49,778 nucleotides of DNA from Bifidobacterium breve. GTDB lineage: Bacteria > Actinomycetota > Actinomycetes > Nanopelagicales > Nanopelagicaceae. Positions 2,367 to 48,951 of this stretch are shown one piece after another (positions within the stretch are counted from its first letter, which is position 1; each line of letters begins with the position of its first letter). The stretch covers positions 1 to 49,778 of the forward strand of contig CAMCVO010000010.1 of NCBI GenBank assembly GCA_945881945.1, in the 5' to 3' direction. Below the pieces are notes generated by a model. The model did no database searches and was not told where the DNA came from. It was given only the letters and a program-made list of their open reading frames with translations. Position numbers and translations under genes: made by a program.

Positions 2367-3527
2367 CTATGCAGCAGCCAATCTCTCGCTACCATCACCG
2401 GTGATCTCTTTACTGCCATGTAATTGCAACATTTTACTTACGGTGTTAGACCAGTCAAATTGTTCTGCTTGAGTTCGCGCTGATTTTCGGCGGGAACTAT
2501 CACGCAGTACATTTGCAATTGCATTGGCAAAGGACTGGCCATCATCAGCTGCTACAGCACCTGCCGGTTGTGGACAGGAGAGGTTTAAAATTTCACCAAC
2601 CGCGCTGCTAGCCGATGCCACTACAGGAGTGCCGCTAGCTAATGATTCAAGTGCTGAAAGACAAAAAGTTTCAAGTGGGCCGGGTGCTATTACCACATCA
2701 GCTGCTGCTAGATAGCTAGCAACTTTCTTGCGATCTGCCACATAACCCACCATTTCGATCGGTAGATTTAAACTTTGCTTTCTAATGTTTTTCCACAGCG
2801 GGCCACCACCAACAATTACTAATCTCACATCTACACCTGCACTAATTAGTTTTTCAACAGCCTGCACACTTCGACCTGGTTCTTTTTCAGGAGACAACCT
2901 TCCGCAGTGCACCAATAAATACCGAGCGCCATTTAATAACTGATTACGCAACTCTAAATTACGATTTGTGGGGTTAAACTCTGTTAAATCAACCCCCAAT
3001 GAGATTTTGTGCAGATTCCTAACACCAATTTTCTCAAACTCACGCGCTGCATAATTTGTAGTTGCAATTACGCAATCAAAGGCAGCAGATAATTTTCGGT
3101 TATGCCAGTTAACTAGAGAATTTCTTAGTTGCTGGGGCAAAAGGGGTAGGTATTTTTCAGCAAGCCCAGCTAACGTCTCATGTGAAAAGACCACACTTGG
3201 GACCTTTTGCTTTCTTGCCCATCTTCCTACCTTAAGGAGGGTAAATCGGTCGGAGACCTCAATTCGATCAGGGTTTAAAAACTCCAAAAGATTAAGTAAC
3301 TGTTTGTTACTCCTAATAACCTGGTAGCCACCACTTCCCACCAGATGGATGCTGGGAAGACTTACTTTTGTGCCAAATGGGGTTTGCTCCTTAATGTATT
3401 TGGGCCCAGGAACAATATAGAAAAACTCATGACCATTTTTTTGGTATCCGCTACCTAATTCATGCAAGGTAGTTTTAATGCCCCCAGAGTTTGGGCCATA
3501 AAAATTGGCGATGTGGACAATTCTCAT
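2367..3527 (-). CDS. GT4-family glycosyltransferase
   Basis: 386 aa with two Rossmann halves. The N-terminal loop IANFYGPNSGGIKT and the C-terminal GPLETFCLSALESLASGTPV (the E-x7-E signature of GT-B family 4 retaining transferases) define it; RYLLVHCGRLSPEKEPG is the nucleotide-sugar-binding strand-loop. The start overlaps the upstream mgtA-type gene by four bases (ATGA). The paired GT4 genes plus SGNH hydrolase look like a small envelope glycolipid operon. The sugar donor and acceptor cannot be read from the sequence. Confidence 0.85.
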   Translation of the reverse strand: MRIVHIANFYGPNSGGIKTTLHELGSGYQKNGHEFFYIVPGPKYIKEQTPFGTKVSLPSIHLVGSGGYQVIRSNKQLLNLLEFLNPDRIEVSDRFTLLKVGRWARKQKVPSVVFSHETLAGLAEKYLPLLPQQLRNSLVNWHNRKLSAAFDCVIATTNYAAREFEKIGVRNLHKISLGVDLTEFNPTNRNLELRNQLLNGARYLLVHCGRLSPEKEPGRSVQAVEKLISAGVDVRLVIVGGGPLWKNIRKQSLNLPIEMVGYVADRKKVASYLAAADVVIAPGPLETFCLSALESLASGTPVVASASSAVGEILNLSCPQPAGAVAADDGQSFANAIANVLRDSSRRKSARTQAEQFDWSNTVSKMLQLHGSKEITGDGSERLAAA

Positions 3528-18921: not shown

Positions 18922-18967
18922 TTGCCACTGTCAGTGGGGTTTAGTATCTTATCGAACAAATGTTCGA
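18922..18967 (+). promoter_or_regulatory. LexA-controlled promoter with SOS box
   Basis: TTGCCA (18922-18927), a 17-base spacer and TATCTT (18945-18950) are followed at once by TCGAACAAATGTTCGA (18952-18967), a perfect 6+6 palindrome of the actinobacterial SOS-box type GAAC-N4-GTTC. The box overlaps both the predicted transcription start and the ATG at 18960, so bound LexA would block RNA polymerase directly. There is no Shine-Dalgarno sequence, suggesting a leaderless or near-leaderless mRNA. Confidence 0.88.
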
Positions 18968-19268
18968 ACGCAAATCAAGTGATGATTTAAGCCAAAACCA
19001 GTTGGCCAAGATCTGCCTGACTACCCAAGGCGGGCAACCTGTTGAGTTTATTTACCAAGGGGTGCGCTTTCATATCAGTGAGGTATTAACCACCTGGCTG
19101 CAAAGTAATCCTTGGTGGCAAAAAATTAACTCTGATCAGATTAATGAAGAGGTAAGTAGGTATTGGCAGGTGGAGGCAGCTCCCATTGGCGCACTCACCA
19201 CCTTTGAGATTGAGTTTAACCAAAGTGATAACTCTTGGCAGATCCGACCAAGCTCTAGAGGCAAATAA
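18960..19268 (+). CDS. DUF6504 family protein, first gene of SOS operon
   Basis: 102 aa. Its ATG lies inside the LexA box, so the first residues MFER are partly dictated by the operator. The core GGQPVEFIYQGVRFHISEVL ... WWQ ... SRYWQVEAA ... TFEIEFNQSDNSWQI matches the small DUF6504 proteins normally encoded between imuB and dnaE2 in actinobacteria (from memory). The role is not known; a mutasome accessory is a reasonable guess. It is two bases upstream of dnaE2. Confidence 0.75.
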   Translation: MFERKSSDDLSQNQLAKICLTTQGGQPVEFIYQGVRFHISEVLTTWLQSNPWWQKINSDQINEEVSRYWQVEAAPIGALTTFEIEFNQSDNSWQIRPSSRGK

Positions 19269-45029: not shown

Positions 45030-45574
45030 AAAAGCTCCTAAAATTTATTCAAGTTGAAGAGTTTAATAAAACAGTAAGTGCTCACTGATGCAGAGTCACC
45101 TGGACGGTTGTTCATTATCTGCAACCTTGCTCAGTAAGACACATCGTGCGTACTAATCACCATAAAGATACCGCCCCGGACTACCTTAATCAAGGGGTGA
45201 AGATGATTTTTTCATAGAACTGCTTACTAATTTCTCACTAAAAACCACTAAGACTCAATAACTCTATAAAGCTATATAAACGAAAGATTGCTTACTAATT
45301 GCAACTGATAATAATTTAAGATGCTTCTAGAACGATCATGATCTGGCGGAGCTAGCAACTGGGTTAGCCGATTGACTAACCTAGTTGCTAACATTTAGCC
45401 ATAGAGATTAAACAGCTTGTTAATTTTTGATCCGCTTTGGATCATGTCTTAAGCTTTTATCTCTACTAATGCTCGGGGTCTGTCCCCGGCACACTATTAG
45501 TTTAATTATTCGTTTTGTTCCAATATGTCCGATTTAAAATGAGAGTGTTTTCTAGGGATTATAAATGTTTCTAA
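45030..45574 (+). other. Hairpin-rich gene-free stretch before the SOS-linked cluster
   Basis: No gene is recognised in this stretch. Three hairpins follow one another: AGCAACT-GGTTAG paired with CTAACC-AGTTGCT (45354-45389); TGATCC/GGATCA (about 45428-45444); and CTAAT/ATTAG enclosing CGGGG/CCCCG (45466-45500), followed by TTTAATTATT, which is terminator-like. The part before 45350 is AT-rich with no clear structure. It may be the edge of an inserted segment or encode a small RNA. Confidence 0.4.
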
Positions 45575-45590
45575 TCGAACGAATGTTCGA
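45560..45590 (+). promoter_or_regulatory. Second LexA (SOS) box with -10 element
   Basis: TCGAACGAATGTTCGA at 45575-45590 is a perfect 6+6 palindrome differing from the dnaE2 box in one central base. TATAAA at 45560-45565 is a likely -10, placing the start of transcription within or just before the box. The -35 is poor. As in the dnaE2 promoter, an ATG lies inside the box (45583). Confidence 0.85.
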
Positions 45591-45595
45591 ATTAT

Positions 45596-46624
45596 GTGCT
45601 AACCTCCATCTTCTCAAAACTGCCCCTTCATTTGGACCAGCAAATGTCAGGAGCAGATAGTAATTTAATCGCCCCTACGAAGCACCCTGCTTCACGAAAG
45701 GACGTGGTGAGTAAAGAGAGCAAAACCAATGAAAATGAGTTATGGGAAAACATCCCGAACTCAAGTGGCGTAGATAGAGCTGAAAAATTAATTTCGCTAA
45801 GCCATATTGCATATGATCGTGGAGATTATAGATCTGCTTTAGCACTTTGTGAAAGTGCAAAAGATATTTATATTTCTCATAAAAACGAGGTCACGACCGG
45901 CACCATGTTACATGTTTATGAAGGTATCACCTGGTCATTAAAAAAATTAAATCGTGATGGTGAGGCCGCTGAGGCTGCGCTAATCGCTGCAAAAAGCTTT
46001 GTAGATGATGATAGATCAGCTGCTGCTTCAATGTTGAGAGATGCGGGACGGTCATTTTTTAACGCAGGAGATTTTGAAAACTCCTTAGAGTGCTACAAAC
46101 AGATTTTTAGCAAGGTAGATCCGGAAATAACAGAGTGGTTAATTGGATCTGATCACTACAATTGCGCAACCGCCAGTATTGAATTAAGAAAATACGAGGA
46201 AGCAATCTCTGATTTACTTAAAGCACGCCAGTGCTTCAAAGAGGAGAAACAACCAGAAAATGTCTATATCTGCGATGAATACCTGTCTAGGGTTTACACA
46301 GACCTTGGGAATGGCGTGGAAGCTGTGATGTATGGACAACGAGCGCTCGATTTTGCGGTATTGTCAAAAAATCCTATTCATGAAAGCACAGCTAACTATC
46401 AATTGGGTTGTGCAAAAGTATTGATGGGCGAGACTGATTTGGCACTTGAGCTCTTGAATACAGCACTTACAATTAATGCTAACCAAGCTGAGCCAGATTG
46501 GGATCTGACAGTACGAGCCAATAAGCAGATTGCTCAGGTTTTAACTATTAAAGGCAAGACAAGCGCTGCTGAGGATATTCTGCGAAGAATTAGAACTTTA
46601 GAAGAGACAATTTGTGACAATTAA
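45596..46624 (+). CDS. SOS-boxed tetratricopeptide-repeat protein
   Basis: 342 aa from GTG 45596, five bases after the LexA box. Weak N-terminal conservation and the lack of a ribosome-binding site make GTG 45704/45707, preceded by AAAGGA, a good alternative start. TPR-type helix pairs run from about residue 60 to the end (AYDRGDYRSALALCESAKDI, FNAGDFENSLECYKQIF, LRKYEEAISDLLKARQCF, MGETDLALELLNTALTI). No signal peptide, so cytoplasmic; TPR arrays of this kind bind protein or peptide partners. Its 3' end overlaps the next gene by 11 bases. Confidence 0.75.
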   Translation: MLTSIFSKLPLHLDQQMSGADSNLIAPTKHPASRKDVVSKESKTNENELWENIPNSSGVDRAEKLISLSHIAYDRGDYRSALALCESAKDIYISHKNEVTTGTMLHVYEGITWSLKKLNRDGEAAEAALIAAKSFVDDDRSAAASMLRDAGRSFFNAGDFENSLECYKQIFSKVDPEITEWLIGSDHYNCATASIELRKYEEAISDLLKARQCFKEEKQPENVYICDEYLSRVYTDLGNGVEAVMYGQRALDFAVLSKNPIHESTANYQLGCAKVLMGETDLALELLNTALTINANQAEPDWDLTVRANKQIAQVLTIKGKTSAAEDILRRIRTLEETICDN

Positions 46625-47096
46625 GACCAAGGCGATTATTGGCGTAAGTGCCATAATGATGTTTATTGCAATTGCGGCAGTACTTCCTAATCAACTTATT
46701 AATAAAGCAGTGAATAATGGCAATTTTAGGGAAGCTGTTATTTCGGATGAAGTTTCAACATTTGATTGTGAAATTCCGGTTCACAAGCCCAACTACATTT
46801 CTCTTACCTGCGCTGATGGTGGAATTGCGGTAAAGGAGATCCGATGGCAAAGTTGGAATCCAAAAGAAGCAATTGGTACTGGGGTATACATGGAAAATGA
46901 CTGCCTGCCTGATTGTGCCAGCGGAAAGTTTCAGCAAACTGCGGTAGAGATTTCTCTCAGGAGTTTAATTCAGTATAAATCAGATTTTTACCTAAAAGAT
47001 CTGGTGATTAATACAACAAACGGCAACACTTTCCCTAGTGGCACTACTTCAATTAAGGTGGACTTAATGGAATATTTGCTTTCAGTAGAAAGTTAG
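46614..47096 (+). CDS. Membrane-anchored or secreted Cys-containing protein
   Basis: 160 aa from GTG, overlapping the TPR gene by 11 bases. One hydrophobic segment (AIIGVSAIMMFIAIAAVLP) anchors it, and the rest is outside. The body has STFDCEIP, YISLTCADGG, IRWQSWNPKEAIGTGVYMEN and DCLPDCASGKF: four Cys likely in two disulfides. Extracellular actinobacterial proteins share this W-x-x-W ... G-x-G ... C-x-P-x-CA-x-G pattern (from memory). Function unknown. Confidence 0.65.
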   Translation: MTIKTKAIIGVSAIMMFIAIAAVLPNQLINKAVNNGNFREAVISDEVSTFDCEIPVHKPNYISLTCADGGIAVKEIRWQSWNPKEAIGTGVYMENDCLPDCASGKFQQTAVEISLRSLIQYKSDFYLKDLVINTTNGNTFPSGTTSIKVDLMEYLLSVES

Positions 47097-47105
47097 GGCT
47101 AACTT

Positions 47106-47423
47106 GTGAGCGAGATTGAACATGCAAATTCTAAGCTTCAATTCTTATTAACTGAGAGTCAATTAGCTGACATTTACTCATCGATTAACTCTGCAATTGG
47201 AGCGTATACACTAAGAACTCAGTTACTCCTTTCTAAGCCAGAAAAGAAGTTTATTTCCTTAGATGAAGTCTATGAAGATTGCTTTGTTCTTTCACTAAGT
47301 AAAAAAGATGTGGGATTTTTAATTGGAACAATTTCAACTAATAGGGACATTAATGGGAGCCTGTGCGCAGAAAAGGTTCGTGACGGTCTTGAGCGGGGCT
47401 CGGCAAAACGAAAAGGTAAATAG
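47106..47423 (+). CDS. Hypothetical small protein in SOS-linked cluster
   Basis: 105 aa from GTG, nine bases after the preceding stop. Not recognised. The predicted content is helical and soluble (LQFLLTESQLADIYSSINSA, LDEVYEDCFVLSLSKKDVG), ending in a basic tail (ERGSAKRKGK). The position suggests the same transcript as the TPR and anchored proteins. No catalytic motif is visible. Confidence 0.5.
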   Translation: MSEIEHANSKLQFLLTESQLADIYSSINSAIGAYTLRTQLLLSKPEKKFISLDEVYEDCFVLSLSKKDVGFLIGTISTNRDINGSLCAEKVRDGLERGSAKRKGK

Positions 47424-47473: not shown

Positions 47474-47929
47474 ATGAGCGACATGACTGACCAGGATCTC
47501 TCTGAGGTGAGTTACACGCGACATGCAGCATTCTGGATCAATGGGAATGTCCCCGTTGAACAGCAAAGCGAAGTCAGCGGTGCAATTCAAGAGTTTTTCT
47601 ATCCGCATTTTAGAGATTACATACATGCAAACCCCAGCAATAGAGAGAACATAAGACTGGCGATTGAAAAGTATTTATATGAGGAAGATCCGATGGGCAT
47701 TTGCTTAAAAGACGCTAAGAATGTTGATGAATACCGCCCGGAGGCAGATTTAATTGCTTGGCTGCTTTTGACGGGCTCATTAAATCCTAAAACTCTCTGG
47801 GCGCTTTGGATACTGCAATTTCATGAGGGTATATCACCATATAAAGGCGAGCAGGATCCAAAAATTCTCGCCATGATTGAATCACTAAATCAAATTTACA
47901 TAGCCAGTAAAAGTAAGGATTTTAGGTAG
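47474..47929 (+). CDS. Hypothetical soluble protein in SOS-linked cluster
   Basis: 151 aa from ATG with a modest AAGG site. Not recognised. It has an acidic, aromatic-rich sequence (TRHAAFWINGNVPVEQQSEV, IQEFFYPHFRDYIHA, YRPEADLIAWLLLTGS, ALWILQFHEGISPYKGEQ). There is no signal peptide and no Cys pair. It is separated by 50 bases from the preceding gene, so it may or may not be co-transcribed. Confidence 0.55.
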   Translation: MSDMTDQDLSEVSYTRHAAFWINGNVPVEQQSEVSGAIQEFFYPHFRDYIHANPSNRENIRLAIEKYLYEEDPMGICLKDAKNVDEYRPEADLIAWLLLTGSLNPKTLWALWILQFHEGISPYKGEQDPKILAMIESLNQIYIASKSKDFR

Positions 47930-47950: not shown

Positions 47951-48439
47951 TTACGAAGCACATACTTGATTATGGAATTTACACCACGTAATTGCATCAC
48001 TACTACTTTGGCCTTGTAAATATTCACCACACTGTTGGCATAAACAGTGATAGTTATACATACCTAGACCACCTACATGTGTGTAGTCGTAGATAAATGC
48101 AGCAACCTGACCTTTAAAGGTGGGAAGTTGCCTATGTCCTGTACTTTTTTGTACCAGGTCTAAATTTAAAACTCCAAGTTTTTCTAATACTTCTGGCTTC
48201 ATATCACTTTTATTCTTAATGGGTACTGCTAGGCCACAGGTACAGCGCATCTCTTCACCGCAGTAATTAACATACGCAAAATGCCACTGCTGGCCTTGCC
48301 AGCTTTTTAGATTTGCATAATGTAGCCAGGCTTTAAACTTATAGTAAGCATTTGGTGATTTTTCCTCATCCTGTGCTTTTTTCAGTTTTTCCAATACAGA
48401 ATCAGTTACAGATGTGTCCACATACTTTTTTTTAGACAT
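47951..48439 (-). CDS. Cys-rich, probable zinc-binding protein
   Basis: 162 aa from ATG 48439; longer frames to 48529 would cover a hairpin. Not recognised by family. Cys clusters look like metal ligands: NYCGEEMRCTCG, NYHCLCQQCGEY and WCKFHNQVC, with nearby His. A helical N-terminal part (SVLEKLKKAQDEEKSPNAYY) and an aromatic segment (KFKAWLHYANLKSWQGQQWH) precede them. It points against the plus-strand cluster and may be an independent accessory gene. Confidence 0.6.
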   Translation of the reverse strand: MSKKKYVDTSVTDSVLEKLKKAQDEEKSPNAYYKFKAWLHYANLKSWQGQQWHFAYVNYCGEEMRCTCGLAVPIKNKSDMKPEVLEKLGVLNLDLVQKSTGHRQLPTFKGQVAAFIYDYTHVGGLGMYNYHCLCQQCGEYLQGQSSSDAITWCKFHNQVCAS

Positions 48440-48951
48440 AGTTAAATAAGTCCTAACTGGACCAGTGTTTGATTGGCCCGCACTTCTAGCGGTGACTTTC
48501 ATCGCTAGCAGGTCTTCCTCTAGGACCACCGTGCGCGGTTAGCGCGGTTGGTGCCAAACTAGCTAAAGGGCTAGAGCATCTGGCTTCTTTGACCTATCCG
48601 TAATTATATATCAACACAATGTCGGTGGTATGGAGTAACCTCAAATAACTAAGAAAAGAGGTGAAGTAAAAAAGTCTTGAATCAACATACTAAGTACTTT
48701 GTCCAGACTCATGTTTATGGCAGCTGTTATCAAAGTAAAGAAACACTTTCCAAAATTGCCAATCTTGTTTGGAGGGGCTGGTGGCTTCATTCCTGACACT
48801 ATAGCTCCACAAGTTTGGCCTAAGACGGCAGTTACACTTGCTCAGATTTGAATCTGATGCTCGTATACCCATAATCCTCGAGCTAACTTATGCAACACTT
48901 TAGACAACATTTCAAATAAGATGGTGATCTAGCCTGACAGGAAAATTTCTT
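48440..48951. other. Gene-poor stretch between zinc-type protein and right-edge gene
   Basis: An imperfect 10-bp inverted repeat CTAGCGGTGA/TCATCGCTAG with one wobble pair lies near 48486-48509, just upstream of the minus-strand gene, and GCGC repeats follow near 48530-48560. A 46-codon frame (48711-48851) is listed separately. No promoter pair or LexA box was recognised for the gene at the right edge. Confidence 0.35.
48711..48851 (+). CDS. Possible 46-aa peptide
   Basis: A frame opening ATG-TTT-ATG encodes 46 residues with a basic amphipathic start (AAVIKVKKHFPKLP) and a hydrophobic glycine-rich part (ILFGGAGGFIPDTIAPQVW). There is no ribosome-binding site. It could be a small membrane-active peptide, a gene remnant or chance; I cannot tell which. 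Confidence 0.25.
   Translation: MFMAAVIKVKKHFPKLPILFGGAGGFIPDTIAPQVWPKTAVTLAQI

Follow-up and report, generated by a model that had tools for sequence, protein, structure and literature searches.

A predicted LexA- and PafBC-controlled operon pairs a TPR protein with an exported or anchored cysteine-rich protein in a streamlined actinobacterium

Introduction

The actinobacterial LexA motif is tCGAAC-N4-GNNCGa (PMC9380542), and a second damage-response element, RecA-NDp (consensus tTGTCRgtg-N8-TannnT; PMC5656591), is the site through which PafBC acts (PMC5656591; PMC8223512). In the mycobacterial recA promoter the two controls stand in tandem, with the LexA-dependent promoter P2 distal and the PafBC-dependent P1 proximal (PMC5656591). 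The operon described here lies on a contig of 49,778 nucleotides (CAMCVO010000010.1, assembly GCA_945881945.1), the whole of which is referred to as the window. Similar to mycobacterial recA (PMC5656591), it presents a LexA box first and a RecA-NDp-type element nearer the start codon, whereas the controlled gene belongs to an accessory TPR/exported-protein unit and encodes no repair enzyme.

Defence modules gated by a damage or ssDNA signal, a possible role considered below for this operon, are exemplified by the WYL-regulated systems CapW/CBASS and BrxR/BREX and by damage-activated AbpAB (PMC9122588, PMC9122589, PMC9122601, PMC10732053). In contrast to these, the operon is predicted to be regulated by LexA and PafBC of the host itself, and it encodes no CapW/CBASS, BrxR/BREX or AbpAB protein.

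The SOS division inhibitors YneA, ChiZ/Rv2719c, DivS and SidA resemble the exported partner found here in being small, exported or single-pass, and under LexA control, but the partner has no LysM or known inhibitor domain, is coupled to a TPR gene and is patchily distributed. The TPR protein itself resembles in fold the LGN/Pins- and Rap-type superhelices (Z 27 and 19-21, respectively), although identity to these is low (about 12-18%) and no GoLoco, HTH or phosphatase partner is seen at the operon; a shared repeat fold of this kind shows no function. A literature search, in which subscription journals were thinly covered, returned no paper describing such an operon.

Results

A perfect LexA box and its conservation

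The box upstream of the TPR gene (Table 1) lies exactly where the initial annotation had placed it and proved, on motif comparison, to be a perfect rather than a near-perfect match. A whole-genome pattern count gave three perfect TCGAACN4GTTCGA sites in 1,099,572 bp, while ~0.06 are expected by chance from the base composition; the remaining two precede recA (contig C23, position 409) and DUF6504-dnaE2 (window position 18952). The genome encodes both lexA and recA, each with a LexA operator (one perfect box for recA; two one-mismatch boxes for lexA, common to a divergent LysM gene), and its four strong LexA sites are those of recA, lexA, dnaE2 and the TPR/exported-protein operon.

Table 1. Coordinates of the operon and its leader elements in the window
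Feature	Coordinates	Strand	Basis and remarks
LexA box TCGAACGAATGTTCGA	45575..45590	+	Perfect match; one of three perfect sites in the genome
Probable -10 (TAACCT) of the predicted LexA-repressed promoter	45600..45605	+	Inferred from orthologue alignment
RecA-NDp / PafBC-type promoter element, degenerate, ATGTCAGGA-N8-TAATTT	45644..45666	+	Consensus match and conservation in relatives
TPR protein, about 305 aa	45707..46624	+	Pfam TPR_12, E 7.5e-19; GTG at 45707 favoured as start over that at 45596
Exported or single-pass anchored protein, 160 aa, four invariant Cys	46614..47096	+	No Pfam family
Third gene, 105 aa	47106..47423	+	9 nt gap after partner; unrelated genes in other genomes
151 aa gene, possible fourth operon member	47474..47929	+	50 nt gap, same strand

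A comparison of orthologous loci, fixed in advance as a test of SOS control, detected a LexA box, at 0-1 mismatch, before the orthologue in 20 genomes from three genera (G000, the genome of the window; G268, with two copies; G257, G239, G265, G216, G259, G241, G301, G303, G302, G306, G191, G283, G258, G255, G215, G285, G152 and G213). An equally good box occurred in one of 3,420 shuffled leaders and in none of the 25 leaders of an order-wide TPR paralogue. On a maximum-likelihood tree the LexA label requires 5 changes, compared to 17.8 when shuffled, a clustering that is inflated by near-copies among the sequences; the 5 changes indicate that the box has undergone gains and losses. In the orthologue footprint alignment, the probable -10 hexamer aligns with a conserved TGTGnTACTCT block immediately 3' of the box. 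Searches for sigma-70 promoters and terminators gave nothing exceeding the shuffled background, and no inverted repeats were found in the leader.

The LysM-like gene divergent from lexA (114 aa; contig C6, locus L004, 1567-1911) shares with it both LexA boxes as well as a near match to RecA-NDp, and likely encodes a division inhibitor of the YneA/ChiZ type.

A second, PafBC-type element in the leader

The RecA-NDp-type element sits between the LexA box and the TPR start codon, and agrees with the consensus in its spacing and at every strong position, with 3 mismatches at weak positions. Given these mismatches, PafBC control of the operon in G000 itself is only suggested. Orthologue leaders share TGTCAGTGAC-N6-GTAACTT 3' of the LexA box according to the leader alignment, and a RecA-NDp match with 0-1 mismatch is present at about 17 loci, while none of 3,420 shuffled leaders was equally good. 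The element is kept even at loci that have no LexA box (G260, G282, G226, G073, G234 and L184). Whole-genome counts of one-mismatch RecA-NDp sites were not above the reversed control, and single sites in G000 are therefore not evidence; what counts is conservation across relatives.

The recA gene of G000 carries the same two elements, a LexA box followed by CGTCAGTG-N8-TACCTT, as does dnaE2, where they abut one another. At the latter locus (18929-19268) the perfect LexA box overlaps the apparent start codon of DUF6504, and no imuB gene was seen between the SRAP gene and dnaE2. Two tandem WYL-domain genes (contig C2, 76185 and 77089) resemble pafB-pafC and, from their arrangement, should encode PafB and PafC. 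The SOS control proposed by the initial annotation, which had missed the PafBC-type element, is strengthened by the conservation of the box and remains a prediction from sequence; we regard control of the operon by DNA damage as highly probable.

Elsewhere in the window, a perfect RecA-NDp match, TGTCGGTGGTATGGAGTAACCT, occurs at 48620-48641 (+) with no long plus-strand ORF before 48952, and may be a promoter, either for a gene since lost or for the 275 aa gene at the contig end (48952-49776). A SAM-IV riboswitch (RF00634, 48.8 bits) at 48475-48594 (-) leads a small Cys-rich gene at 47951-48439 (-). SAM-IV elements number only 1-3 per genome; diverged copies adjoin the TPR locus in G260, G255, G282 and G079, with similar sequence in about ten more.

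The TPR protein

The longest TPR ORF spans 45596-46624 from a GTG at 45596, but the real start is probably the GTG at 45707, about 116 nt 3' of the LexA box, because a Shine-Dalgarno-like AAAGGA precedes it and the orthologue alignment begins there. Structure prediction with AlphaFold2 produced a confident TPR superhelix (pLDDT 91.7, 15 helices). The closest folds were LGN/Pins and designed TPR superhelices (Z 22-27; LGN/Pins 27), followed by RapI, NprR and RapH (Z 19-21). This is a peptide-binding fold, and it does not reveal the client. The protein matched no HTH family.

The exported partner and its coupling to the TPR gene

In the partner, a short basic N-terminus and one hydrophobic segment are followed by a domain; residues C52, C66, C97, C101, P59, D68, W78, W81 and P99 are invariant in the homologue alignment. 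The N-terminus is compatible with a signal anchor and equally with a signal peptide that is cleaved off. The initial description of a membrane-anchored four-Cys protein whose gene overlaps the TPR gene accordingly stands for the overlap and the cysteines, while the anchoring is uncertain. No Pfam family was matched at a meaningful E-value in any of 18 partner homologues, and a LysM domain is absent. The partner model reached a pLDDT of 67.5 and its best matches (E 0.32 in Foldseek; Z 6.8, to YceI) were below chance level, so that no fold was assigned, and a match to a PDB antibody was set aside as chance, with domain E-values above 1. Many genomes of the order, and other actinobacterial families too, contain standalone relatives of the Cys-rich domain, which identifies it as a general exported domain.

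The TPR and partner frames overlap by 11 nt in the window. Such overlaps, usually of 4 nt and ranging from 1 to 53 nt, occur in 13 of 14 same-strand pairs and additionally at L184; in G085 the two genes are separated by an inserted one. The dN/dS values of the pair (0.035-0.14) indicate that both proteins are maintained and functional. Joint conservation of the two genes in relatives, likewise set beforehand as a test, was borne out, and the partner is missing beside LexA-controlled TPR genes in G241, G191, G283, G255 and probably G301. The two proteins probably act in one pathway; direct contact between them is doubtful, since the cytoplasmic tail of the partner amounts to a few residues only.

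In genus g37 (G080 and G085) a gene for a trypsin-like protease lies 5' of the TPR gene. The corresponding loci, L129 and L130, have a SAM-IV-like element, a Cys-rich gene, the protease gene, the TPR gene and the Cys-rich partner gene in one direction, an array that is continuous in G080 and interrupted in G085 and that has no LexA box.

Variable downstream genes

The 105-aa ORF reported after the partner gene is present. The only clearly co-located relative of its product is a weak one (E 0.001) in G234, about 0.8 kb from a TPR-family gene that carries a perfect RecA-NDp site. In other genomes the third position is taken by different genes: in G260 the product is a SHOCT protein, in L184 a weak match to Swt1-like HEPN proteins (E 0.022), in G152 a protein with a GreA/GreB C-terminal domain, in G285 a 408 aa protein with no assignment and in G303 a ResIII-type helicase. 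A ResIII-type helicase gene also lies directly 3' of the partner gene in G180, on a contig that begins at the partner gene, leaving the TPR gene out of view. The 151 aa gene matched no family and has a clear relative in G068 only, with weak matches to a gene of 373 aa that lies around position 3300 in complete genomes.

Distribution and genomic neighbourhood

The order-wide TPR paralogue shares about 29% identity with the window protein. At E 1e-20 it was present in 253 of 296 genomes, and among the good ones in 104 of 108, in a fixed housekeeping neighbourhood that includes IMP dehydrogenase and a SpoU methylase. The window protein belongs to a separate, patchy clade: among 24 congeneric genomes none has a close (1:1) copy, and the relatives at 46-54% identity come from two other genera and from one pond bin labelled Microbacteriaceae, many of the genomes compared being draft bins. 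The same freshwater-type operon was additionally seen in the public bins L185, L188, L190 and L191. Its small genome and freshwater relatives suggest that the organism probably belongs to Candidatus Nanopelagicales.

Across relatives the pair shifts between unrelated genomic contexts. Neighbours include genes for a NERD-UvrD helicase, T5orf172, a PbeA/DrmD-like helicase, a MORC-like ATPase and a PD-T4-6-like kinase, although islands gather unrelated genes and such association is weak evidence. In the PADLOC defence library the TPR proteins matched weak generic TPR models only (best E 9e-6; window copy 7.9e-4), the partner matched none, and no model of a known anti-phage system was matched by both proteins. 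No relatives were found in viral contigs, plasmids or phages. An origin from a phage or plasmid was dropped from consideration, with no relatives there and only weak, TPR-like PHROGs matches.

Discussion

The combined results suggest an accessory damage-response operon, likely a protective or growth-arresting module triggered by damage or phage and not a part of core repair, and we give this reading about an even chance of being correct. Under the proposed mechanism, LexA would keep the distal promoter shut until ssDNA, built up through replication damage or through phage attack and its degradation, led to RecA-driven cleavage of LexA and opened it, while PafBC would act independently as activator of the proximal promoter, which parallels the control of recA in mycobacteria. 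The cytoplasmic superhelix of 7-8 repeats may then serve as a peptide-binding adaptor for the changeable third protein or another client, and the exported or anchored partner would act at the cell envelope. Four features make a protective or arresting role appear likeliest: the patchy distribution, the changing neighbourhoods, the frequent proximity of restriction- and helicase-type defence genes and the variability of the third gene.

A defence-type role, one of the guesses offered at the outset, is mildly favoured by the neighbourhood and the patchiness and finds no PADLOC match beyond the weak generic TPR models; we hold it tentatively, as a real possibility somewhat short of an even one. 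More speculatively, and rather improbably on present indications, the locus may represent an as yet unreported class of modular immunity or growth-arrest systems in which host LexA and PafBC switch on a TPR adaptor and an exported Cys-rich partner, the two working together with a swappable third-gene effector.

One alternative is an accessory for envelope stress or repair that takes no part in phage defence: damage would induce remodelling of the surface, for example as protection from light or reactive oxygen, and the Cys-rich partner would be an extracytoplasmic binding protein. The standalone relatives of the Cys-rich domain across the order and in other actinobacterial families fit such a role, as does the near-universal TPR paralogue, but the patchiness, the changing neighbourhoods and the changeable third genes are left unexplained, and we consider it unlikely.

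The chief rival, of much the same low probability, is an SOS division checkpoint, with the partner acting on septal wall synthesis in the manner of YneA, ChiZ, DivS and SidA and the TPR protein as its cytoplasmic regulator. Damage control, a small exported or anchored protein and a translational coupling that looks obligatory are all in keeping with such a checkpoint. The genome, however, already has a YneA/ChiZ-like arrangement in the LysM gene divergent from lexA, the partner has neither a LysM domain nor a Pfam family, the patchy distribution does not suit a core checkpoint, and in some genomes a LexA-controlled TPR gene has no partner beside it. We favour the accessory protective module over the division checkpoint, and consider a lysis module or a Rap-type regulator less probable.

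In ICEBs1-type elements, Rap proteins coupled to the SOS response are known, and a Rap/RRNPP-like TPR protein could sense a peptide and gate a damage-inducible mobile element. The fold does resemble RapI, NprR and RapH, but LGN/Pins and designed TPRs come closer (Z 22-27), and a match to Rap is to be expected of any TPR array; moreover, no integrase or phage gene was recognized in the locus, viral contigs and plasmids yielded nothing, and no short phr-like gene was recognized, the adjacent gene encoding the 160 aa Cys protein. We consider this reading very improbable. Nothing supports the lysis or release module that was also put forward initially: viral contigs, phages and plasmids yielded no relatives, and the family scan of the locus turned up no phage lysis gene.

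The SOS regulons of streamlined actinobacteria are very small, and here one of the four strong LexA sites is predicted to drive an accessory pair. As an accessory damage-response unit, the operon offers a comparative example in which LexA and PafBC control appear to be joined on a gene outside DNA repair, and makes a promising candidate, either as a checkpoint for damage or as a defence module gated by it.
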